Shown here piece after piece: positions 31,729 to 63,488 of a stretch of DNA of 64,000 bases. Source of the stretch: a virus. How positions within the stretch are numbered: the stretch's first letter is position 1; each line of letters begins with the position of its first letter. The stretch is from IMG/VR virus record IMGVR_UViG_3300034685_000200, positions 1 to 64,000 of that record; one strand, given 5' to 3'. Under the pieces are notes generated by a model, which was not told the origin of the DNA, did no database searches, and saw only the letters and a list, made by a program, of their open reading frames with translations. Position numbers and translations under genes: made by a program.

Positions 31729-31758
31729 GTGTTTAAATGTATTTGTCGGAGGGTGTTT

Positions 31759-32613
31759 ATGGCGTTTAATTTTAAAGAATGGAATCCGAATCGGGTTAAT
31801 TACAAATATATTTCGTGGCAGTTGGCAAAGTTTTACCCGGACAAGTTTGAAATATGGTGGGACCGGGATCGTTTTAATTATGATGACGGCTATTTGGAGT
31901 TGATAGAGTATTGTTCTCATCATTTTGATATCTGGTGGAATCCAGATAAATTTAACTGGAAGTCATGGTCGGGCCATATTGCCAGATTTTGTCACGAACA
32001 TTTTCATAAATGGTGGGATGTGGAGAATTTTTGTTGGGTAAATGGATCGAGTTTGTTGGCGGAATATTGTTTTGGTTATTTTGATATCTGGTGGGACCCG
32101 GAGAAGTTCAATTGGAAAAAGGCATCCGGGAAACTCGCTCGGTTTTGTTCTGGTAAATTTCTTAAATGGTGGGACAAGGATAAATATAATTATGATAGTG
32201 ATTATGTTGATTTGATTTTGTATTGTTCTGAGTATTTTTATCATTGGTGGGACCCTAAAAGGATAAACGATAGTCATGTTAGATTTTTGGCTTTGGGGTG
32301 TCCAGATTATTTCGATGAATGGTGGAATCCACAATACATTATCTATGGCTATTCAGTGAAGAATTTAGCTAAATATTGTTCCAAACATTTTGATAAGTGG
32401 TATGATCCAAGAACACTCACTATTGAAGATACTGAATATCTGATTAAATATTGCTCTGAACATTTTGACAAGTGGTGGGATAAATCGAGGATTAGGTATA
32501 AGGAACATGCTCGTCTCTTAGCGAGATGCTGTAATGAGCATTTTGATAAATGGTATACTCGTCGCTCAAAGTATTGTAGGGAAGCCCTTGAAAAGATGAT
32601 CATCGAGGGATAA
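31759..32613 (+). CDS. Trp-rich tandem-repeat protein 1
   Basis: 284 residues built almost wholly of a unit of about 26 residues: F-D-x-W-W-[DN]-x-[ED]-[KR]-[FY]-N-W-x-x-x-S-x-x-L-A-x-[YF]-C. About ten units follow an N-terminal cap NFKEWNPNRVNYK and end with a conserved cap (WYTRRSKYCREALEKM). Trp is about 8.5% of residues. It looks like a helical solenoid whose WW pair would form a repeated surface or core. Start ATG 31759 has GGAGGGTG. First of four paralogues. No named family comes to mind; function unknown. Confidence 0.85.
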   Translation: MAFNFKEWNPNRVNYKYISWQLAKFYPDKFEIWWDRDRFNYDDGYLELIEYCSHHFDIWWNPDKFNWKSWSGHIARFCHEHFHKWWDVENFCWVNGSSLLAEYCFGYFDIWWDPEKFNWKKASGKLARFCSGKFLKWWDKDKYNYDSDYVDLILYCSEYFYHWWDPKRINDSHVRFLALGCPDYFDEWWNPQYIIYGYSVKNLAKYCSKHFDKWYDPRTLTIEDTEYLIKYCSEHFDKWWDKSRIRYKEHARLLARCCNEHFDKWYTRRSKYCREALEKMIIEG

Positions 32614-32615
32614 AC

Positions 32616-33395
32616 ATGAGAATTGATTTCGACAATTGGAGTCCAGAGATTTTCGATTGGAAGAGTAGGTCTTGGTTTTTAGCTCAAAATTATCCTAATT
32701 TAATTGATAAGTGGTGGAATTCTGAGAAATTCAATTGGAGGTCTGGTTCTTTTAATTTAGCTCAGTATTGTTATGAGTACTTTGATACTTGGTGGGACCC
32801 GGAGAAATTCAACTGGAATAGGTGTTCCGGTGTGTTGGCTCAATATTGTAAGAAACACATCAAAAAATGGTGGGACCCGGAGAAGTTCAATTGGACTAGA
32901 CACGGAGCGATACTTGTTTGTTATTGTTGTGAAGATTTTGATATTTGGTGGGATGCGGAAAGATTCAATTATAAAAGTGGTTCATGGGTGTTGGCGCAGT
33001 TTTGTTCCCATCGGTTTGATGATTGGTGGAATGCCGAAAGGTATAATTGGAAATCGTTTTCGGGGTTTTTGGCTCAGTTTTGTTGCGAGAATTTTGACAA
33101 GTGGTGGAACCCGGAAAAGTTTAATTTTAAAAAAGATTCCCGGTCTTTGATTCAATATTGTTCTAATCATTTCGATAAATGGTGGGACGCTAAGAGATTT
33201 ACACGTAGTAAAATGTCTGAGATTATAAAGTATTGCCCAGATCATTTTCCAAAGTGGTGGGACAAATCTAAAATCAGTTATACGGAACATGCAAAATTGT
33301 TGATGAAGTATTGCTACAAATACGTTGACGTTTGGTACTCGGATAGATCCACCCATTGCAGAGAAGCTTTGAAAATGTATGTTACTGAGGAATGA
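32616..33395 (+). CDS. Trp-rich tandem-repeat protein 2
   Basis: 259 residues, nine repeats of the same 26-residue unit (WWDPEKFNW core) with the N-cap DFDNWSPEIFDW and C-cap WYSDRSTHCREAL. Trp about 9.7%. Start ATG 32616 lies 2 bp after the previous stop. The end TGA overlaps the next gene's leader. The repeats are more regular than in copy 1, suggesting recent expansion or homogenisation. Confidence 0.85.
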   Translation: MRIDFDNWSPEIFDWKSRSWFLAQNYPNLIDKWWNSEKFNWRSGSFNLAQYCYEYFDTWWDPEKFNWNRCSGVLAQYCKKHIKKWWDPEKFNWTRHGAILVCYCCEDFDIWWDAERFNYKSGSWVLAQFCSHRFDDWWNAERYNWKSFSGFLAQFCCENFDKWWNPEKFNFKKDSRSLIQYCSNHFDKWWDAKRFTRSKMSEIIKYCPDHFPKWWDKSKISYTEHAKLLMKYCYKYVDVWYSDRSTHCREALKMYVTEE

Positions 33396-33397
33396 TT

Positions 33398-34096
33398 ATG
33401 TATATTGATTTTAATGATTGGAACCCAGAAGAGTTTGATTGGGAGAAGAATTCTCGGATTTTAGCTAGGTATTATTCCCATTGTTTTGATAAGTGGTGGG
33501 ATGCGAATCTGTATAACTGGGAGTATTCATGGTATCTTGTTAAATATTGTTATAATCATTTCGATATTTGGTGGGACACTGAAAAGTTTAATTGGAAAAA
33601 TGATGCCAGATTTTTACCTGAGTATTGCTACCAGCATTTTGAAAAATGGTGGGATGCTGAGAAATTTGAACTTGAAAGATGGTATTCTGTTCTTTTGGCT
33701 GAATATTGTTCCGATCATTTTGACATCTGGTGGGATGCCGAAAGATTTAATTGGGTTAATTCTTGGGCATTAGCGAAATACTGTTACAATCACTTCGATA
33801 AATGGTGGTGTGAGAAAAGATATGATTGGATAAATTGTTCATGGGCATTGGCAGAGTACGCTTTTGACAATTTTGATAAGTGGTGGAATCCAAAGCTATT
33901 TAATTGGCACGCTATTGATAGTTTAATTACATATTGTTCTAACCATTTCACTAAATGGTGGGACAGATCTAAAATTAACTATAAAGAACATGCTCAATTA
34001 TTAGTAAAACATTGTTATGAATACTTTGACGTGTGGTATTCGAGTAAATCGAAGTATTGTAGGGAAGCTGTAGCAAAGTACATTGCTTTGAAATAA
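33398..34096 (+). CDS. Trp-rich tandem-repeat protein 3
   Basis: 232 residues, eight repeats. The N-cap is DFNDWNPEEFDW and the C-cap WYSSKSKYCREAVAKY. Trp about 11%. Start is ATG 33398 (in frame with ATG 33392, which overlaps the previous TGA). Individual units vary most at the position after WW (WWCEKRYDW in one unit). Confidence 0.85.
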   Translation: MYIDFNDWNPEEFDWEKNSRILARYYSHCFDKWWDANLYNWEYSWYLVKYCYNHFDIWWDTEKFNWKNDARFLPEYCYQHFEKWWDAEKFELERWYSVLLAEYCSDHFDIWWDAERFNWVNSWALAKYCYNHFDKWWCEKRYDWINCSWALAEYAFDNFDKWWNPKLFNWHAIDSLITYCSNHFTKWWDRSKINYKEHAQLLVKHCYEYFDVWYSSKSKYCREAVAKYIALK

Positions 34097-34143
34097 TTAT
34101 GAACATTAAGATTGGGAATTGATCATTGTTGTTCATGATAAAA

Positions 34144-34178
34144 AAGAACTTGACGAGTTCTTAATTATATGATATTTT
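34144..34178 (+). promoter_or_regulatory. Hairpin overlapping a possible promoter
   Basis: AAGAACT (34144-34150) pairs with AGTTCTT (34156-34162). TTGACG (34150-34155), a 17-bp spacer and TATTTT (34173-34178) form a weak promoter that would drive the gene at 34207. The -35 is inside the hairpin loop, so the element may be regulated. Confidence 0.4.
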
Positions 34179-34206
34179 ATGTTTCGTGATAACAAAGGAG
34201 GGTGCA

Positions 34207-34632
34207 ATGAGTGTTAATTTGGTTGCAAGAACGAGGGATGGTGAAATTCAATTGTGGCAAACTCCCACCCAAATAACATATACCATTTTACCACCTTCTC
34301 TTGGTTTGACGAAAAAGGGTAGGGAGGCTCGTGAAGAGTCTTTGTCTCTTCTCTATTCAGCCCGTCCTTGGGAGCGTATGCATTATACCATGCTTTTGCG
34401 CTACCTTCTGAAGGTAAAACCAGATGATCCAGGTCTTCAGAAACATGCCAAGATCATTTTCAGCGAGCTTGGTCTGTTTGGTTAGGGTTCCAATTGGGAT
34501 CAAATTCTTCGTGGGAATCCTACAGAGAAGGAAGTTTCGGCCTTTGTTGAGGCCATAGCTCCAGAGTATCCGCCCGAAGCAGTGGATTTTGTGTTTGACT
34601 CTTATGGAATTCATCCCAAGACGGATGAGTGA
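34207..34632 (+). CDS. Hypothetical protein inserted in the Trp-repeat cluster, amber-interrupted
   Basis: 141 codons. Start ATG 34207 has AAAGGAGGGTGC. TAG at 34483-34485 is followed by 48 sense codons to TGA 34630-34632, which leaves the normal 5-bp gap to the fourth Trp-repeat gene. It lacks WW repeats, so it is a different protein lodged between paralogues 3 and 4. Both halves share codon style. Function unknown. Confidence 0.65.
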
Positions 34633-34637
34633 GAAAA

Positions 34638-35501
34638 ATGACCCTTAGTATTGATTTCAATAATTGGAATCCCGAAACGTTTAATTGGAAAGAAGATTCT
34701 GGAAGACTAGTTATTCTTCACTTTGACAAGTTTTTGCTTTGGTGGGATGCTGATAAATTCAATTGGAAAGAACATTCTGGGTTTTTAGCTCAGTATTGTT
34801 ACGGTTATTTTGATGTGTGGTGGGACGAAAACAAGTATAATTTTAATAACTTTTCGTGGGCTTTGGCAAAGTTTTGTCGTAACGACTTTTTAAAATGGTG
34901 GAATCCTGATAAATTTAATTGGATACAGGGATCGAGCTATTTAGCTCAATATTGTTTTGAATATTTTGATATATGGTGGGATGAAAATCGATACAATTGG
35001 AATAATTGTTCCAAGTACTTGGCAATGTATTGTTACAAAGAATTTCGGAAGTGGTGGAATCCAAATAAATTTCATTGGAGTCGTGATTCGATTTATTTGG
35101 CTAAGTGTTGTGCCGATAATTTTGATGATTGGTGGGACTCAGAAAGGTTTGATTGGAAGCGTGGTTCATCTTATTTAGCTGAATATTGTAACGCACATTT
35201 TGACAAATGGTGGAATCCAGATAAATTCAATTGGAAAAAAGATTCTGGATATTTACCTAAGTATTGCTCAGAGTATTTTGATGTTTGGTGGGATGGAGAG
35301 AAATTTAACTATCGACATGCTGGTAAATTGGCACAGTATAACTCTAAGCAGTTTCATAAGTGGTGGGACAAATCTAAGATAGATTATAAGTTACATAGTG
35401 AGGCGTTGGTTAAATATTGTAGTATATATGTTGATATTTGGTATAGTAACAAATCAAAGTATTGTGTAAATGCAGTTAAAAAAGTTATTTGGAGGTTTTA
35501 A
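34638..35501 (+). CDS. Trp-rich tandem-repeat protein 4
   Basis: 287 residues, ten repeats with N-cap DFNNWNPETFNW and C-cap WYSNKSKYCVNAVKK. Trp about 10%. Start ATG 34638 is chosen because it lies just after the preceding stop and in frame with the N-cap; a GTG at 34629 is upstream. The last unit before the cap (KWWDKSKIDYK) is nearly the same in all four proteins, so the C-terminal end is the most conserved and may be the functional or targeting part. Confidence 0.85.
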   Translation: MTLSIDFNNWNPETFNWKEDSGRLVILHFDKFLLWWDADKFNWKEHSGFLAQYCYGYFDVWWDENKYNFNNFSWALAKFCRNDFLKWWNPDKFNWIQGSSYLAQYCFEYFDIWWDENRYNWNNCSKYLAMYCYKEFRKWWNPNKFHWSRDSIYLAKCCADNFDDWWDSERFDWKRGSSYLAEYCNAHFDKWWNPDKFNWKKDSGYLPKYCSEYFDVWWDGEKFNYRHAGKLAQYNSKQFHKWWDKSKIDYKLHSEALVKYCSIYVDIWYSNKSKYCVNAVKKVIWRF

Positions 35502-37031: not shown

Positions 37032-37541
37032 ATGGAATCCGCCTCTTGTTCTGAAATCTCCGTTGGAAAAAAGAAATTCAGTAGAATTCATTACGAACAA
37101 TTTGACGCACCTGCAAAGAATGTGGGTGCGTCATTTTTTTGTCAATTCAAACGATATGATGTTATTGTACCAGACGAAGAACAATATCGTGATTTTGATA
37201 TTATGTTATATGATAAGGAAAATGATTGTTATATTCCGGTTGAAGTGGAAGTCAAAAATGTGTGGACTAAATATGGAGAATGGCAAGGTTAGGAAACTGT
37301 TGATGTGCCAGCTAGAAAACGCCATTGTAAAGCGGAAGTGTATGTCATGTTTAATTCCAGTTTGAATACGCTTTTGATTACAACGATGGATGTAATTAAG
37401 CAGTCAAATATCATTTTTAAAAACACTAAATATACAAAAAGGGAACCGTTTTTTTCGGTTCCCCTTTCGTGTTTTCGGATGTGGAAGCTGGTTGGTAATC
37501 AGTAGGTAAGAATATCTAGCGAATCGAAGGTTTCTGAATAA
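37032..37541 (+). CDS. PD-(D/E)XK-like nuclease-type protein with two TAGs
   Basis: 169 codons crossing TAG at 37290 and 37503 and ending at TAA 37539-37541. DFDIMLYDKENDCYIPVEVEVK is split by convention into D...E-x-E-V-K, the arrangement of a PD-(D/E)XK core. The part after the first TAG continues with VPARKRH, a VYVMFNSSLNTLLI strand and REPFFSVPL, which reads like the rest of the same fold. A hairpin (about 37441-37463) lies inside the coding end. Start ATG 37032 or GTG 37026. The 3' end overlaps the convergent TrpRS gene. Confidence 0.55.
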
Positions 37542-38725
37542 TTCCAATCTGAAAATATACTCGAATTTTTAATTCGATTTTTGGCCCACCAACTTCCTTC
37601 TTCGATGAGACTTTTGACGTTTGGTATGGCCCTAAATCGTGGTTTCAATGTGACCAACATGTGTTCCGCAATTTTACGTTTACAATCTAGGCATCCAATT
37701 TTTGCTGTTTCGCAAGCTGATTGAATTTCTTCAATCTGGTCTTTGTTTCCAAAGGCGATCCAGTGTGTGCTTAATGGACACTCGTGGAAGATTCCAGGTT
37801 CAGTTCGGCGTCTCGGATAAGTGATAAATCTATTGTAATATTCGTAAACTAGATCTTTTGCGGTCGTGAACCAATCGAGTAGAAGATAATTATTTAGAGA
37901 ACTCGACATTTTGCGTCCGTCGAATCCACAAAGGGGTCGGTCGCCTGAATAAACGGGTCGAAATCGCTTGATGCCAATGTTCCATCGATGTGTCAACATA
38001 TCGATGATTTCGTGGATTATTTGGACGTTGGGTTTCTGGTCGTCACCGACAATGAGTGTGTCGGGTTCGTAGAGGATCACATCAGCCGCCATGAGAAGAG
38101 GATAATGGGCTAGTCCCAGATTTCCATAAGAGATTTTGGTTACGTGATGGATTATTTCATTGATTGTCTTTTTATCAATTTTGCATTTTTCGAGTTGGTT
38201 GATGATACAGTTTGTTCCCAAGGGCGTTAGCCCACCAATCAGGATATCGGAATGAGAAAAGAAAACATCCACGATGCAATTTATCTCTTCTTCGTTTAAT
38301 GTCTGCTTATCGTTTAGGTAATCAATGAATTCATTCTTAAGTGCACTGACGTAAATTGGGTTTCTGAATAGAATTGCCGGTGTGGTTCCAGCGTTGATAA
38401 TCATGTTATGGAGTTCATAGTGTTTGTCTTTCATCTCATATTGGCTGATAAAAACAACATGTTCAGGGTCCAGGTTGACATAGCGAGAAATTGTCGTGAT
38501 ACATTGGATTGTGGTTTCTCGTGCGTCTTTCAACGCACGACCGGGGTGATGTTGTGAAGAAGTAAGGGTGTGTAGTTCAGCCGAAAAAATTATTGTTTTA
38601 AACTGATTTTCTAAAATTGGTTTGATAATGGAAAGATAGTGCCCAAGGTGCAAATTGGACGTTGGACGAAAGCCAACCATCGAAACGGAATAGTCGGTGG
38701 GGGTGAAACTCTCCATCAATCGCAT
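37499..38725 (-). CDS. trpS: Tryptophanyl-tRNA synthetase
   Basis: 408 residues. The class I signature PTSNLHLGHYL (HIGH) is near residue 23. Further family marks are LTSSQHHPGRA, HYPLLMAADVILYEPD and DDQKPNVQIIHEIID, and GRKMSSS is the KMSKS motif. It charges tRNA-Trp. Full length for TrpRS. Start ATG 38725 has AAAGGAG. No tRNA-Trp is in the window. A phage TrpRS is rare: it could serve the Trp-rich proteins nearby, replace a host enzyme lost in infection, or charge a phage suppressor tRNA. Confidence 0.9.
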   Translation of the reverse strand: MRLMESFTPTDYSVSMVGFRPTSNLHLGHYLSIIKPILENQFKTIIFSAELHTLTSSQHHPGRALKDARETTIQCITTISRYVNLDPEHVVFISQYEMKDKHYELHNMIINAGTTPAILFRNPIYVSALKNEFIDYLNDKQTLNEEEINCIVDVFFSHSDILIGGLTPLGTNCIINQLEKCKIDKKTINEIIHHVTKISYGNLGLAHYPLLMAADVILYEPDTLIVGDDQKPNVQIIHEIIDMLTHRWNIGIKRFRPVYSGDRPLCGFDGRKMSSSLNNYLLLDWFTTAKDLVYEYYNRFITYPRRRTEPGIFHECPLSTHWIAFGNKDQIEEIQSACETAKIGCLDCKRKIAEHMLVTLKPRFRAIPNVKSLIEEGSWWAKNRIKNSSIFSDWNYSETFDSLDILTY

Positions 38726-41404: not shown

Positions 41405-41453
41405 TTCGGAAACTGGACGGGTTGGTGATTAACCCAAAACATAGGAGGGTGTG

Positions 41454-42497
41454 ATGAAGATTTCGGACATCAAGGTGGTCATTAAGAAATCGCTTGAAAA
41501 CGGATTTCGTCGTCCTTTGTATATGTGGGGGCCTCCTGGTATCGGAAAGAGCACGCTTATCAAGCAGGTCGCCGATGAACTTGGTGTCGGATTCATTGAT
41601 TTCCGCCTTATCTACTACGATACGGTGGACATGCGTGGCATTCCGTTTCCTGCTGTCGTGGAAGAGGATCGCCTTCGCAATCTCAATTCCATGGATGAAT
41701 ACATTCCCGTTTCGTCTGTAAAGACGGTGTGGTTTCAGCCTTCGATTCTTCCCCACGATGGTCGTGGTATTCTCTTTCTCGATGAGCTGAACGCCGCCGA
41801 ACCCGATATCCAAAAGGTTGCGCTTCAGCTTGCATTGGATCGCAAAATTGATAATTATCGACTTCCCGATGGTTGGGTTGTGGTTGCGGCTGGAAACAGA
41901 AGCGAAGATCGTGCGTATACCTACGATTTGAGTGCTCCACTCGCCAATCGGTTCATCCACATCAACGTTGACGTTGACGTGGAATCGTGGATCAAGTGGG
42001 CCGAAAACAACAACATTCATCCCTATGTGATTGCCTATGTTTCCAAGCAACGGCACCATCTTTTCCAGTTTAATCCCGATTCGGATGCGGTTACGTTCGC
42101 AACGCCCAGAACATGGGAATATGTAAGTGATATTGTTTATTCCTTTACCGGTTCTGTTCGAGACGAGTTGATTATTGGAACGGTTGGTGACGGTGTTGGT
42201 ATTGAATTTTTGAATTTTATTAAGATGTTTGAAAAGTTTCCTGATATTGATGATATTTTGAATGATCCTGAAGGAACTCCAGTTCCAGAAGAACATGATA
42301 TTCGTCATGCTGTTTGCAATTCTTTGATCAATGTTGTGAATGGTGAGAATATCGGAAAGATCAAGAAGTATGTTGAACGTTTCGGTGATGAATATGAAAT
42401 CGCATTCATTAGGATGATTGCAGAGGTAAAGCCAGCCCTTCTTGAAACGAGTGAAATGGCGCTGTGGGCTGTAAAGTTTGCAAAGTATCTTAATTAA
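41454..42497 (+). CDS. MoxR-family AAA+ ATPase
   Basis: 347 residues. Walker A is MWGPPGIGKSTLIKQVA, Walker B ILFLDELNAAEPDIQ, sensor 1 VVAAGNRSED, and an arginine-finger-type SAPLANRFIHI lies after it. This is the MoxR/RavA-like chaperone ATPase group, usually paired with a VWA-domain protein such as the one at 43610. Together they probably assemble or remodel a metalloprotein or virion complex. Start ATG 41454 has GGAGGGTG. Confidence 0.85.
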   Translation: MKISDIKVVIKKSLENGFRRPLYMWGPPGIGKSTLIKQVADELGVGFIDFRLIYYDTVDMRGIPFPAVVEEDRLRNLNSMDEYIPVSSVKTVWFQPSILPHDGRGILFLDELNAAEPDIQKVALQLALDRKIDNYRLPDGWVVVAAGNRSEDRAYTYDLSAPLANRFIHINVDVDVESWIKWAENNNIHPYVIAYVSKQRHHLFQFNPDSDAVTFATPRTWEYVSDIVYSFTGSVRDELIIGTVGDGVGIEFLNFIKMFEKFPDIDDILNDPEGTPVPEEHDIRHAVCNSLINVVNGENIGKIKKYVERFGDEYEIAFIRMIAEVKPALLETSEMALWAVKFAKYLN

Positions 42498-42510
42498 AAC
42501 AATGATTGAT

Positions 42511-42577
42511 CAAGTGGAAAATCAAAAGATTAATGATTGATTTTCCACTTGACATTAAACAATGATTCTGGTATAAA
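42511..42577 (+). promoter_or_regulatory. 14-bp inverted repeat overlapping a sigma-70-type promoter
   Basis: CAAGTGGAAAATCA (42511-42524) and TGATTTTCCACTTG (42538-42551) are perfect inverted arms. The right arm runs into the -35 TTGACA (42549-42554), followed by a 17-bp spacer and TATAAA (42572-42577). It may be an operator or a terminator/attenuator for the gene at 42632. Confidence 0.7.
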
Positions 42578-42631
42578 AGAATCACAATAAGGGGTTGGTG
42601 AATTAAACAATTAAACATAGGAGGAGAAGAA

Positions 42632-43513
42632 ATGGAAGCTATCGCCATGAAGATTGAAGATAATAAGAATGACATTTGTGAAAAGGCCGTGGTGGTTGAT
42701 CTCACAATTTCCTGTTGGGTGGGAAAAACCACTGATGTTCGTGGAAATGACGCCGTTTCCTCGACCTATGGTGTGAAGGAGACCCGTGGAAACTATGTGA
42801 AGTTTCTGGTTCCCAAGGAGAGGCTGAACGAGCTTAAAAAGCTTGAACAAAGGCTTCGTAATATGCATCGGAAAAACACACTTCCTTGGGGGGATCGTGG
42901 GGAACGTCTTCTTCCGACGAAGAATTATTTCCGATACATGGAAAAAATCGAGAAGGCCCGTTCCGAGTGGGAAAAGGCGGTGGACAAGTTTATTGATGAG
43001 TATAACGATCTTGTGGAGCAGAGCCGGGTTGAATTGGGTCACCTTTTTAACCCCAATGACTATCCTTCCGAGAGCGAAATTCGATCCTATTTCGGAATTT
43101 CCATCGATGTGTTTCCCATTCCCACCACCGATTTTCGAGTAAGTCTTGGTGGTGAGGAAGTGGAGAGGATGCGGAATCGCCTCGAACAGTTGCTTCAGAA
43201 GCGTTTTGAGGCGGCCAGCAAGGATCTTGTGATCCGCATGATGAATGTGGTGAAAAAGATCAAGGATCGTTTGACCGATCCCGAGGCCGAAAGGTTTCGC
43301 AAGAGCATGTTTGAGGCGGCAAACGATATTGTTGAAATTGTGGAATCCCTTAACGTGTCGGATGATCCCGAGCTTAATCGTCTTGCCACGGAAATTCGGG
43401 ATGTCTTTGGTGGTGTGAATGTAGATGAAATCAAAGAAAATCCCGACACCAAGAAGAAGGTCGCCGAAGATGCGGCGAAGATTCTCGAAAAAATTAAGAA
43501 GTACATGAATTAA
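42632..43513 (+). CDS. Coiled-coil protein between MoxR and VWA genes
   Basis: 293 residues, highly charged and helical (KEKRLNELKKLEQRLRNM-type stretches), with G+C-rich codons suggesting high expression. It has its own promoter upstream and a strong terminator downstream. Start ATG 42632 has GGAGGAG. In MoxR-VWA systems a third, substrate- or adaptor-type protein is common, and this may be it. No domain recognised. Confidence 0.7.
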   Translation: MEAIAMKIEDNKNDICEKAVVVDLTISCWVGKTTDVRGNDAVSSTYGVKETRGNYVKFLVPKERLNELKKLEQRLRNMHRKNTLPWGDRGERLLPTKNYFRYMEKIEKARSEWEKAVDKFIDEYNDLVEQSRVELGHLFNPNDYPSESEIRSYFGISIDVFPIPTTDFRVSLGGEEVERMRNRLEQLLQKRFEAASKDLVIRMMNVVKKIKDRLTDPEAERFRKSMFEAANDIVEIVESLNVSDDPELNRLATEIRDVFGGVNVDEIKENPDTKKKVAEDAAKILEKIKKYMN

Positions 43514-43521
43514 GAACCTTC

Positions 43522-43550
43522 GGGGATGGTTCACAACCATCCCCTTTTTT
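43522..43550 (+). terminator. Strong rho-independent terminator
   Basis: GGGGATGGTT pairs with AACCATCCCC (10-bp perfect stem, loop CAC), followed by TTTTTT. Confidence 0.95.
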
Positions 43551-43551
43551 A

Positions 43552-43599
43552 TTGACTTGTTGCTTGTTTTGTGATATATATTTATTACAAACAAGCAAC
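43552..43599 (+). promoter_or_regulatory. Promoter flanked by an 11-bp inverted repeat
   Basis: TTGACT (43552-43557), a 17-bp spacer and TATATA (43575-43580). Arms GTTGCTTGTTT (43559-43569) and AAACAAGCAAC (43589-43599) surround the -10 box, a classic operator position. It drives the gene at 43610. Confidence 0.7.
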
Positions 43600-43609
43600 G
43601 GAGGGTGAA

Positions 43610-44797
43610 ATGATCAACAAGAAAGAACAAGAACGATTGAGAAACATTAAGGCAAGATTCGTTCTCGTAGATCCTTTCTTTGCTAATCTTCTCAATAAGC
43701 TTGTTATTTTCCCTACTAGTGAAATAAAGACGGCGGCAACGGATGGTCAATTTTTGGCCTACAATCCTGATTTTTTTGATGAATTAAGCGTTCCAGAACA
43801 AGTGTTTGTGTTTGCCCATGAGGTGATGCATTGTGCGATGTTGCATCATCTGAGAATAGGTAGCCGTGAAAAAGAAACATGGAACACGGCGGCAGATTAT
43901 GTTGTGAATGGCATTTTGGTTTCCAATCATTCGCTTGTTAAGGGTGCATTGTTCGACAGTCGTTTTCATGGAATGAGCGCCGAAGAAGTTTACGAATTGT
44001 TGTTGCAGGAAGAAGATAAGGCCGAGCAAAATGGTTCTTCCGGTTCCAATGCCGAATCGGGTTCGGGTGGTGGCGGTGCTCCCGATGATCTCTACTCCCC
44101 CGGGACGCTTCCCGTTCCAGAAGAACTTCGGAATTCTGTCGGTGAAAAAAATGAAAACGAACAGGAAATTGAATGGCGTTCTACCGTTGAAAGCCTTCGA
44201 CAAAGCCTTGGTGGAACGTTGGCTGGAACAAGAGCCGGTCATTTTTTGCGAGAATTCGACAAGGTTTTCAATCCGAGTGTGGATTATAGGAAGATCTTGA
44301 ATCAGTTTTTAACGACGTGCCTTTCTAAAACCACGTCGTGGAAGAAGACCAAAAAACGTCTTCGTGCTCATGGCATTGTCCTTCCTGGGAAGGCTCGTCA
44401 AAAGGAAGCGCTGGATGTTGCCGTGATTGTGGACACGAGTGGTAGTATTTCACGGGATATGATTTCTCAAATCAACCGTGATTTGGAAGAGATTCGGGCG
44501 AAATTTGAAGCTACCATTCATTTTATTACGGTGGATTTCGCCGTTCATGATTATTTCGTCGTGAAGCCTCACGATAAAATTGAACTCACGTATCGTGGCG
44601 GTGGTGGAACGAGTTTTGTTCCTGGATTCAATCTTCTCCAAAGAGAACGTGTTTTACCCAAGGTGTGTCTCTATTATACCGATGGGTATTGCAATACGTT
44701 TCCCCAATCGGTTCCGAGGTTCCCGGTACTTTGGATGCTCACGATAAGAAATAATTGGTTTAAGCCACCATTTGGCAAAATCATCAAGATGGTTTAA
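43610..44797 (+). CDS. Metallopeptidase-like / VWA-domain protein (DUF2201-type)
   Basis: 395 residues. N-terminal half: FVFAHEVMHCAMLHH (HExxH-like) and NTAADYVVNGILV, as in DUF2201. A low-complexity linker follows (Ser/Gly-rich, residues 140-175). The C-terminal half is a VWA-like domain with VIVDTSGSIS (MIDAS-type DxSxS). It pairs with the MoxR ATPase at 41454. Start ATG 43610 has GGAGGGTG, preferred over the upstream frame opening. Confidence 0.8.
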   Translation: MINKKEQERLRNIKARFVLVDPFFANLLNKLVIFPTSEIKTAATDGQFLAYNPDFFDELSVPEQVFVFAHEVMHCAMLHHLRIGSREKETWNTAADYVVNGILVSNHSLVKGALFDSRFHGMSAEEVYELLLQEEDKAEQNGSSGSNAESGSGGGGAPDDLYSPGTLPVPEELRNSVGEKNENEQEIEWRSTVESLRQSLGGTLAGTRAGHFLREFDKVFNPSVDYRKILNQFLTTCLSKTTSWKKTKKRLRAHGIVLPGKARQKEALDVAVIVDTSGSISRDMISQINRDLEEIRAKFEATIHFITVDFAVHDYFVVKPHDKIELTYRGGGGTSFVPGFNLLQRERVLPKVCLYYTDGYCNTFPQSVPRFPVLWMLTIRNNWFKPPFGKIIKMV

Positions 44798-61323: not shown

Positions 61324-61328
61324 TCTTG

Positions 61329-63488
61329 ATGCAACAAGAAATGAGCTTGTCTGATATTTTGGATTTGATTAAGCGTGGGGAAGAGAAGGGGTATGTTCTT
61401 CTAAATGCTTATTATGTTGGAAAACAATGTGTTTTGCATTTCGTAAATAAGGAAACGAAGCATGTTGTTTCAAAGCGGGTTTCTATTAAGGTCCCGGTGT
61501 ATAGGTATAGCATTGATAATCTGAAAACAGAGAGCAACAAATTTCAAGCTTTGTATCTTCAGTATGCAAAGCGATGTGAAAAAATCGAAGTCCATCCGAT
61601 GCACCTTTCCACCATTGGCGATGTCAAATCATATTCTGCCGTTGCCAATACAGAATTTCATCCCACTCGGTATCTTACCTACAATACGTTTCGTTCAGAA
61701 TACCACATCAAGACACTTCCCGTGACGCTTGCCGATCGAAATGATGTACGGGTGTGTGTGTTCGATATCGAGATGTTTCCCGATGACGGTTCGTTTCCTG
61801 ATCCCGGGAAGGCAAAATATCCCATCGATTTGGCAACAATCTTCGATTGCGAGACGAAGACGGCAAATGTGTTTTATCTCCGTGATCGGGTGGAGTTCAC
61901 ATCTCATGACGAGATTATGGAAAAAATTAAGAATCACGTTTCTGGTCGTGTGAATTCCAGTGACTTTGAAGATCTTCGGATTGTTTATAATGTTTACGAT
62001 GAAGAAAGTTCGATGTTGGTTGATATTTTAAAGTGTTTGCGGCAATTTGCGATTGTTACTGGATGGAATGTTAATAACTTTGACCTTCAATATCTTATCA
62101 ATAGGTGTGAAAAGAATAGTATTAAAATTGAATATTATACAACGTTTGATGGATTTGAAAAGTGTTATGTATTTTCACATGGGTTTTCAATTGATTACAT
62201 GAATCTTTATAAGTTTATTGTATCGAAAAATATGCCAAGTATGAAGCTTGATTATATTGCAAATGCTGTACTTGGTGTAAATAAAATTGAAAGCGATACA
62301 TTTCTTGATATTGCATATAATATCGTTGACTGTTTTCTTATTTATTTGATGGATCAAAATCTTAATCTTATTGATGTTATGTTTGAGTTTCATAAGAATG
62401 GTGCCGTATTGCATGTTTTTAATGTAAAGAACATACTTGAACCATATTTTATGAAATTTGGTAAAGCTAATGGTATTGTGTTTATTGCTTCAAAGTTTAC
62501 AAACTATTATAACTATTATTTCAATGAAGTATATAAGGCTGTTAATGCAGATTTTTATGGTTTGGAGAAGAAAGATTTGAAGATATATTTCTATAAGAAT
62601 ATTGTCAATTTCTTGAAAAATCATATCACATCTCTTGATGAAAATGATGTTTCTGAAGATAATACAAACAGTGACAACGATGATTCCGATGATGATTCAA
62701 GTGATACGAAGGTATATAGCATTCAGACTTTGCTTGGTCAGATTCGACGTGGGAAGATCAAGGAGGATCAACGGAAAAAGTTCCTGGATGCTCACCAGGT
62801 GACCACATCTTGTCACAATCGACTTAGTGAAGGTGAGGATGAATGGGATTGGGTGCGTAAAGTGATCGCCCCCAACATCCATTCAATTCGTTCTTATGGT
62901 GGTGCTTACAATAAGAGTTTTATTGGTGTTTCCGAAAAACTCATCGACCTTGATTTTTTCTCTATGTACCCGACAATTATGTATGGTCTTAACATCAGTG
63001 TTGAGACGGCCAGGTTTATCACTCCCATTCGAGAAACCATCGATTATCTCTATAATGGTTTCGATGAGCCAAGAGATGATCGACGTGTCGTTGTCTATGA
63101 TTTTGTAAAAGATCGTTTTTTAAATGTATCCGCTTCCAAAGTGTATCGTGGTATTTTCCGTTCTGGGAAATACACAATTGCTAATATAGGGATTATATAC
63201 GATAAGAAGCCTGGATTTATTGCAAAGATGTGTGAGCGATTGTTGACAATTCGTGCGGAGTATAAAAAGAAAAAGGCCGAAGCGACAGATCCGATAGAAA
63301 AAAGAAAGTATCATATTTATCAGTTGTTTTATAAAATTTATGCGAATTCGATTTACGGATATTTTGGATATTCATTTGGAGTTTTGTTTAATCGACTGCT
63401 TGTTTCGTGTGTCACGTCAACGGGGCGTATGGAGATTTTGTACGCCAACAAGTACATCAACGAGGTTTTTCAGAAGAATGGTTGGTAA
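61329..63488 (+). CDS. Family B DNA polymerase, N-terminal two thirds (no motif C)
   Basis: 719 residues. Exonuclease motifs: VCVFDIEMFP (Exo I), TGWNVNNFDLQYL (Exo II) and DIAYNIVDCFLIYL (Exo III). Polymerase motif A is DLDFFSMYPTIMYG (about residue 541) and motif B is YKIYANSIYGYFGY (about residue 670). The gene stops at TAA 63486-63488 just after the helix that precedes the YGDTDS motif C, which is absent. The acidic insert near residues 440-460 is unusual. The catalytic C-terminus must come from another gene beyond the window. No TAG in 719 codons. Confidence 0.9.
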   Translation: MQQEMSLSDILDLIKRGEEKGYVLLNAYYVGKQCVLHFVNKETKHVVSKRVSIKVPVYRYSIDNLKTESNKFQALYLQYAKRCEKIEVHPMHLSTIGDVKSYSAVANTEFHPTRYLTYNTFRSEYHIKTLPVTLADRNDVRVCVFDIEMFPDDGSFPDPGKAKYPIDLATIFDCETKTANVFYLRDRVEFTSHDEIMEKIKNHVSGRVNSSDFEDLRIVYNVYDEESSMLVDILKCLRQFAIVTGWNVNNFDLQYLINRCEKNSIKIEYYTTFDGFEKCYVFSHGFSIDYMNLYKFIVSKNMPSMKLDYIANAVLGVNKIESDTFLDIAYNIVDCFLIYLMDQNLNLIDVMFEFHKNGAVLHVFNVKNILEPYFMKFGKANGIVFIASKFTNYYNYYFNEVYKAVNADFYGLEKKDLKIYFYKNIVNFLKNHITSLDENDVSEDNTNSDNDDSDDDSSDTKVYSIQTLLGQIRRGKIKEDQRKKFLDAHQVTTSCHNRLSEGEDEWDWVRKVIAPNIHSIRSYGGAYNKSFIGVSEKLIDLDFFSMYPTIMYGLNISVETARFITPIRETIDYLYNGFDEPRDDRRVVVYDFVKDRFLNVSASKVYRGIFRSGKYTIANIGIIYDKKPGFIAKMCERLLTIRAEYKKKKAEATDPIEKRKYHIYQLFYKIYANSIYGYFGYSFGVLFNRLLVSCVTSTGRMEILYANKYINEVFQKNGW

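Follow-up and report, generated by a model that had tools for sequence, protein, structure and literature searches.

What is the function of four tryptophan-rich repeat genes found between the ribonucleotide reductase and dCMP deaminase genes of an uncultured virus? The window analysed here is a 64,000-nucleotide stretch, positions 1-64000 in the record of an uncultured virus, which has 126,535 bases. Ribonucleotide reductase, dCMP deaminase, family B DNA polymerase, a DnaB-like helicase, a UvsX-like recombinase and a tRNA nucleotidyltransferase make up a gene set of large-phage type. A search with one Pfam model for terminase gave no match in the record, which may therefore be incomplete.

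Four tryptophan-rich repeat genes

An earlier note on this DNA had described four paralogues sharing a repeat built around a Trp-Trp pair, and the four plus-strand open reading frames, with 37 units in total, bear this out (Table 1). Twenty-five of the units are 26 residues long, seven have 25 residues, one has 27, and the remaining four are 23-residue terminal caps. Full units follow the consensus F-D-x-W-W-[DN]-P-E-K-F-N-W-K-x-x-S-x-x-L-A-x-Y-C-x-x-H, in which both tryptophans of the WW pair are invariant (25/25 full units), while Leu19 and Cys23 are each conserved in 24 of the 25. The tryptophan content, put at 8-11% and called far above normal in the earlier note, was measured at 8.5, 9.7, 11.2 and 10.1% for proteins A, B, C and D, counts whose probability against a 1.4% background is between 4e-12 and 2e-16.

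The C-terminal cap (..W-Y-[ST]-x-[KR]-S-[KT]-[YH]-C..), which had been noticed before, is indeed common to all the paralogues, and they also have in common a conserved N-terminal cap, F-x-x-W-x-P-x-x-[FV]-[DN]-[WY]. The C-terminal cap and the penultimate unit are the best-conserved regions; at the penultimate unit the paralogues are 60% identical, whereas pairs of units in general average 42%. The description of the genes as tandem holds for A-C, which are contiguous or overlapping (the 33392 start of gene C overlaps the stop of gene B), but not for D, which comes about 540 bp later, after an unrelated 99-residue reading frame.

Table 1. Features of the window discussed in the text
Feature	Coordinates	Strand	Remarks
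Trp-rich repeat protein A	31759..32613	+	284 aa; 10 FxxWW units and N-cap; alternative GTG start at 31729
Trp-rich repeat protein B	32616..33395	+	259 aa; 9 units; modelled with AlphaFold2 as a solenoid with two helices per unit, pLDDT 92.2
Trp-rich repeat protein C	33392..34096	+	232-234 aa; 8 units; ATG at 33392 or 33398
ORF between C and D	34186..34485	+	99 aa; unrelated; without family match
Trp-rich repeat protein D	34638..35501	+	about 287 aa; 10 units; GTG start at 34629 possible
TrpRS-like gene	37499..38725	-	2 kb from the Trp-rich genes
MoxR-type AAA+ ATPase, candidate partner	41451..42497	+	348 aa; PF00004 7e-9; MoxR profile 2.2e-31
Protein between the MoxR and VWA genes	42632..43513	+	293 aa; weak DUF3150 similarity, below cut-off
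DUF2201 protein, candidate partner	43571..44797	+	PF13203 7.6e-39; PF09967 5.9e-23

The TrpRS-like gene close to the Trp-rich genes was considered as a supplier of tryptophan for these proteins. TrpRS was found in none of the 10 other Trp-rich viral records searched, and the link is thus probably a coincidence.

A repeat family without a name

The earlier note did not recognise the repeat as a named family, and profile searches led to the same result. No Pfam match over cut-off was obtained for the Trp-rich proteins, HEAT, ARM, TPR, PPR, PUF and other known alpha-solenoids included; PHROGs, NCBIfam and PADLOC gave no match worth keeping, and no family match was found in the PDB by profile. Pfam matches to Plasmodium RESA and to OYE-like proteins fell below cut-off and were set aside as chance. 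Among isolated phages (INPHARED, about 50,000 phage records, tblastn) no credible relative was present, the matches to S-CAM7 being at the level of chance (E 0.5).

Relatives were, however, recovered from uncultured viruses and from genome collections. Eight further IMG/VR viral lineages carry the family: G001 (L009), G002 (L016), G003 (L017), G004 and its near-copies (L018), G007 (L021), G008 (L022), G010 (L024) and G404. G008 and G010 have at least 10 copies each, as against four in the window. The phage expansions are housed in accessory regions of small genes without known function, and the L018 and L021 genes lie in metabolic or replication neighbourhoods, as in the window. In the genome collections the family was found in Desulfobacterales, in other desulfobacterial MAGs and in one archaeal MAG, and on bacterial chromosomes the gene is single-copy. 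Profile-profile comparison (hhalign) joined the window set to the bacterial set at E 4e-36 and to the G008 set at E 1e-28. Judged by the sequence searches made, this appears to be a new, undescribed repeat family common to phages and bacteria.

The repeats are predicted to form an alpha-solenoid

Prediction with AlphaFold2, run on protein B together with four relatives, gave an all-helical solenoid at high confidence (pLDDT 92.2, pTM 0.82), in which each unit contributes an 11-residue and a 7-residue helix and a capping helix closes the chain end. The guess of a solenoid made from the regular period is thereby upheld: the model is confident (pLDDT 92), shows no disorder and has two helices per unit. 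A bacterial relative was modelled with the same fold (pLDDT 87). To judge by the repeat pattern, the core is most likely formed by the invariant Trp, Phe, Leu and Cys residues, with the variable positions facing outward. Foldseek searches of the PDB with the protein B model and with the bacterial model returned no significant match, none falling below E 0.03. The best structural match in BFVD was an entomopoxvirus 'tryptophan repeat' protein (E 0.097, probability 0.89), which is not significant and serves as a lead only.

In bacteria the solenoid gene heads a three-gene block

The bacterial relatives stand in a constant order, in which the Trp-rich solenoid gene is followed by a gene for a DUF2201 zincin-VWA protein and then by one for a MoxR AAA+ ATPase. 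This order was seen in all 10 readable genomes (G011-G013, G015-G018, G070, G083 and G292), although in G016 a contig break falls within the block. G311, an eleventh contig, stops inside the gene itself and was left uncounted. The bacterial DUF2201 protein has a zincin-like N-terminus with HExxH and a VWA C-terminus with MIDAS, and both motifs are conserved. Flanking genes differ between genomes and look chromosomal (by sequence, they include uvrA, dnaK-like and type II secretion genes), so the blocks are not copies of one provirus.

In 389 genomes of one class, strong matches to the Trp-rich (< 1e-10) and VWA (< 1e-80) profiles coincided in exactly eight genomes, the next VWA match being at 2e-10; the Fisher p-value of about 7e-16 for this co-occurrence ignores species relatedness. 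The adjacency of the Trp-rich, VWA and MoxR genes is an observation independent of any correction for relatedness.

MoxR/VWA pairs in the phages

A MoxR/VWA pair is also present in the window. Its DUF2201 protein has a putative N-terminal zinc metallopeptidase (HEVMH) and a C-terminal VWA domain, with HExxH and MIDAS both seen in the translation. The two genes, adjacent in bacteria, are here separated by one gene (41451-44797). They share their strand with the Trp-rich genes, at a distance of 6-9 kb. Across the phages, Trp-rich and MoxR/VWA genes are 2-40 kb apart and not adjacent, and in some phages the MoxR/VWA genes adjoin tail genes.

In a tree of MoxR proteins, 15 of the 16 Trp-rich-linked rows fell into one supported clade (97/93), in which the bacterial rows formed one supported subgroup beside the phage rows. 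The exception is the window MoxR, which sits outside this linked clade on a long branch among generic phage and bacterial rows; likewise, the window VWA-zincin scores only 57 bits, as against 200-940 in the linked set. Five viral lineages, G001-G004 and G404, combine Trp-rich genes with a MoxR/VWA pair of the linked clade, G404 being the one new Trp-rich carrier among 50 viral records found through MoxR/VWA. Trp-rich genes were thus carried by five of the 10 viral lineages of the linked clade, and by none of the 41 viral records with other MoxR/VWA types. In the other five linked-clade lineages the gene was undetected on contigs of 15-55 kb, a length at which a missing gene is no proof of absence. 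G008 and G010 had no MoxR/VWA pair in 120-129 kb. Taken as a partnership between the Trp-rich protein and the MoxR-VWA machine, the association is well supported in the relatives, and it is plausible in the window virus, to which the clade evidence does not extend; that the partners touch physically is something we infer from the genes.

C-terminal tails shared with other phage proteins

The ends of the Trp-rich proteins drew attention in several relatives. In G008, a K-M-x-x-H-L-like tail is found on 32 of 244 called genes, compared with 3 of 1,915 internal 16-mers (Fisher 4e-28), and in G003 F-K-I-E-H-D-I-like tails end 9 of 57 genes, compared with 1 of 602; since the tail patterns were picked after inspecting the genes, such p-values overstate the case. 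A pattern-free comparison, which escapes this flaw, gave 370 similar C-terminal pairs versus 46 internal pairs in G008, 110 versus 24 in G010 and 28 versus 24 in the window virus, true paralogues included.

The G008 carriers include Trp-rich genes, DUF4116 repeat genes and several proteins that are dissimilar once the tail is removed. Related tails occur on small genes of G002, G001 and G404, the G001 Trp-rich protein has AIMFKLE near its end, and G010 has a tail of its own. The Trp-rich tail of G003 and of some others is no more than similar to those of the small genes. Because some of these genes are paralogues, common descent accounts for part of the sharing. For G008 the idea that the tail is a DNA element, for example a recombination site or a ribosome site, was rejected: synonymous codons vary freely at the conserved residues, which argues for selection on the protein. 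Codon use in the G003 tails is tighter, and selection there may act at either level. An address tag was likewise rejected for the C-termini of the window proteins, which no gene of the virus beyond the four paralogues shares.

For the phages whose proteins carry such tails, a speculative and rather unlikely proposal is an address-tag system. In it, a lineage-specific C-terminal tail would mark the Trp-rich and DUF4116 solenoids along with many small proteins unrelated to them, and a single receptor would recognise it; in some lineages this receptor would be the MoxR/VWA-zincin machine. A single ATP-driven device would then receive, remodel or cleave a whole accessory battery of proteins, the Trp-rich solenoid serving as the arm dedicated to it. 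The solenoid-VWA-MoxR core of the system is a chromosomal operon in sulfate-reducing bacteria. If the tails are an address signal, they would offer a sequence handle on which small phage proteins of unknown function cooperate.

What the solenoids may do

Solenoids usually bind other proteins. With the solenoid as the first gene of a MoxR-VWA operon, the simplest reading is that it serves as the client-binding adaptor arm of a MoxR-VWA remodelling machine. A target, whether a protein or a complex, would be gripped by the solenoid surface, the conserved C-terminal end of the solenoid would dock on the VWA partner, ATP hydrolysis by the MoxR ring would remodel the client, and the zincin domain might cleave it; the window virus would use the same arrangement. 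In known MoxR-VWA pairs, the substrate is captured via the VWA domain and remodelled with ATP, the two proteins acting as chaperone and co-chaperone (PMC7159879). Since the role is deduced and the window pair belongs to another clade, we favour the adaptor reading only tentatively and give it somewhat less than an even chance. As to the partner, the earlier note had suggested a variable one, such as a receptor of the host or a protein of its defence. None of the results favours this, and the single-copy bacterial relatives, which stand beside VWA-zincin and MoxR ATPase genes, argue for a partner machine instead. The varying unit counts on which that suggestion drew are real among the paralogues, but they are also normal for solenoids.

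The phage copies might nevertheless act alone, as host-takeover or counter-defence solenoids that sequester host proteins, vary in an arms race and have no need of MoxR/VWA. The expansion of paralogues in accessory regions, four here and far more in G008 and G010, the missing pair in those two genomes, and interior units less conserved than the C-terminal unit are what such proteins would look like; single-copy, syntenic bacterial orthologues kept with MoxR/VWA do not resemble an arms-race protein, and the position of the window genes between ribonucleotide reductase and dCMP deaminase and the lack of a PADLOC match count against it too, so that we regard this reading as somewhat unlikely. Quite unlikely, in our estimate, is that the Trp-rich proteins belong to the virion or are injected, either as capsid cargo sorted by the C-terminal end or as tail-assembly scaffolds served by the MoxR/VWA chaperone. 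A tail common to Trp-rich and unrelated proteins in the relatives is what a cargo signal would give, MoxR/VWA genes adjoin tail genes in some phages, and a role of MoxR-VWA in jumbo phage virion assembly has been proposed (PMC7824862); against this stand the metabolic and replication neighbourhoods of the genes in the window, L018 and L021, the window virus having no shared tail, and bacterial homologues that have no virion.

An operon with a MoxR chaperone is a common arrangement for dedicated clients, and the Trp-rich protein could accordingly be a substrate matured by MoxR/VWA, for example a solenoid in need of help with folding or with joining a complex. A compact fold is, however, predicted with high confidence without a partner, and phages without the pair keep many Trp-rich copies, which makes a substrate role improbable. 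On the adaptor reading, by comparison, a third partner not listed before would be added to the MoxR-VWA machines, for which most clients are unknown, and the compact three-gene block of the bacterial version makes that partnership directly testable by co-expression.

Comparison with known systems

The nearest counterparts are the MoxR-vWA ternary systems, of which VMAP, iSTAND, FtsH and beta-propeller types have been described (Kaur et al. 2020, PMC7159879). As in those systems, a MoxR AAA+/VWA pair has a dedicated adjacent third component, the Trp-rich gene lying directly upstream of the VWA gene in ten bacterial genomes, and deltaproteobacteria are among the carriers. In contrast, a Trp-rich alpha-solenoid takes the place of the third component, the VWA domain is fused to an N-terminal DUF2201 zincin rather than to C-terminal effectors, and no effector genes were seen. 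The Trp-rich and VWA proteins gave no match to VMAP-C or to the variable effector domains, and the system was not classed as VMAP.

A MoxR/metallopeptidase-vWA pair of group 2.2 jumbo phages has been proposed as a virion-assembly chaperone (Iyer et al. 2021, PMC7824862). It has the same two-protein architecture, the window pair being of this general kind, and the portions of that account consulted do not mention a Trp-rich third component. By the MoxR tree, the linked clade is separate from generic MoxR types.

Two repeat families invite comparison. DUF4116 repeats (PF13475), found in giant viruses and phages, are likewise short repeats in tandem viral genes, and in G008 they end in the same C-terminal tail as the Trp-rich proteins; unlike the latter, they have units of about 22 residues with a different motif, and homology was rejected, since the Trp-rich proteins have no PF13475 match and hhalign finds no profile-profile similarity. 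The entomopoxvirus tryptophan repeat family, compared by fold only, has a similar name and a weak fold match and belongs to a different kind of virus. Thus, while the MoxR-VWA machine is of a known kind, the searches made suggest that its third component and the repeat family are new.

Other genes in the window and in its relatives

A TrpRS-like gene lies 2 kb from the Trp-rich genes of the window. A search of ten other viral records with Trp-rich genes found none. The family B DNA polymerase ORF of the window covers the Pfam profile only in part, and is possibly split or interrupted.

Features in the window and in other stretches of DNA (L numbers)
Feature	Location	Strand	Match
TrpRS-like gene	window 37499-38725	-	NCBIfam tryptophan--tRNA ligase models, 1e-30, all under cut-off
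Family B DNA polymerase ORF, 720 aa	window 61326-63488	+	Pfam polymerase
Five tandem DUF4116 repeat genes, phage G008	L193:10268-12177	-
Eleven tandem genes, ~95 aa each, phage G003	L017:4558-7958
Long Trp-rich repeat proteins of 472 aa and 435 aa	L030:545-3254
TnpB/IS605 OrfB-like gene	L010:4236-5477
TnpB/IS605 OrfB-like gene	L011:14312-15382
DUF2325 gene / AraC-type HTH gene	L094:8436-9713; L029:2186-3573	-;

In the uncultured phage G008, the five DUF4116 genes differ in unit number and share their C-terminal tail with the Trp-rich genes. All eleven tandem genes of phage G003 end in an FKIEHDIA-like tail, and many of them have no detectable similarity to each other. The two TnpB/IS605 OrfB-like genes, on L010 and L011, belong to the same virus. 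The short contig L030 was binned as a Thermoplasmata archaeon, and could be viral rather than archaeal. In bacteria, genes for a DUF2325 protein and an AraC-type HTH protein often lie ahead of the Trp-rich operon.
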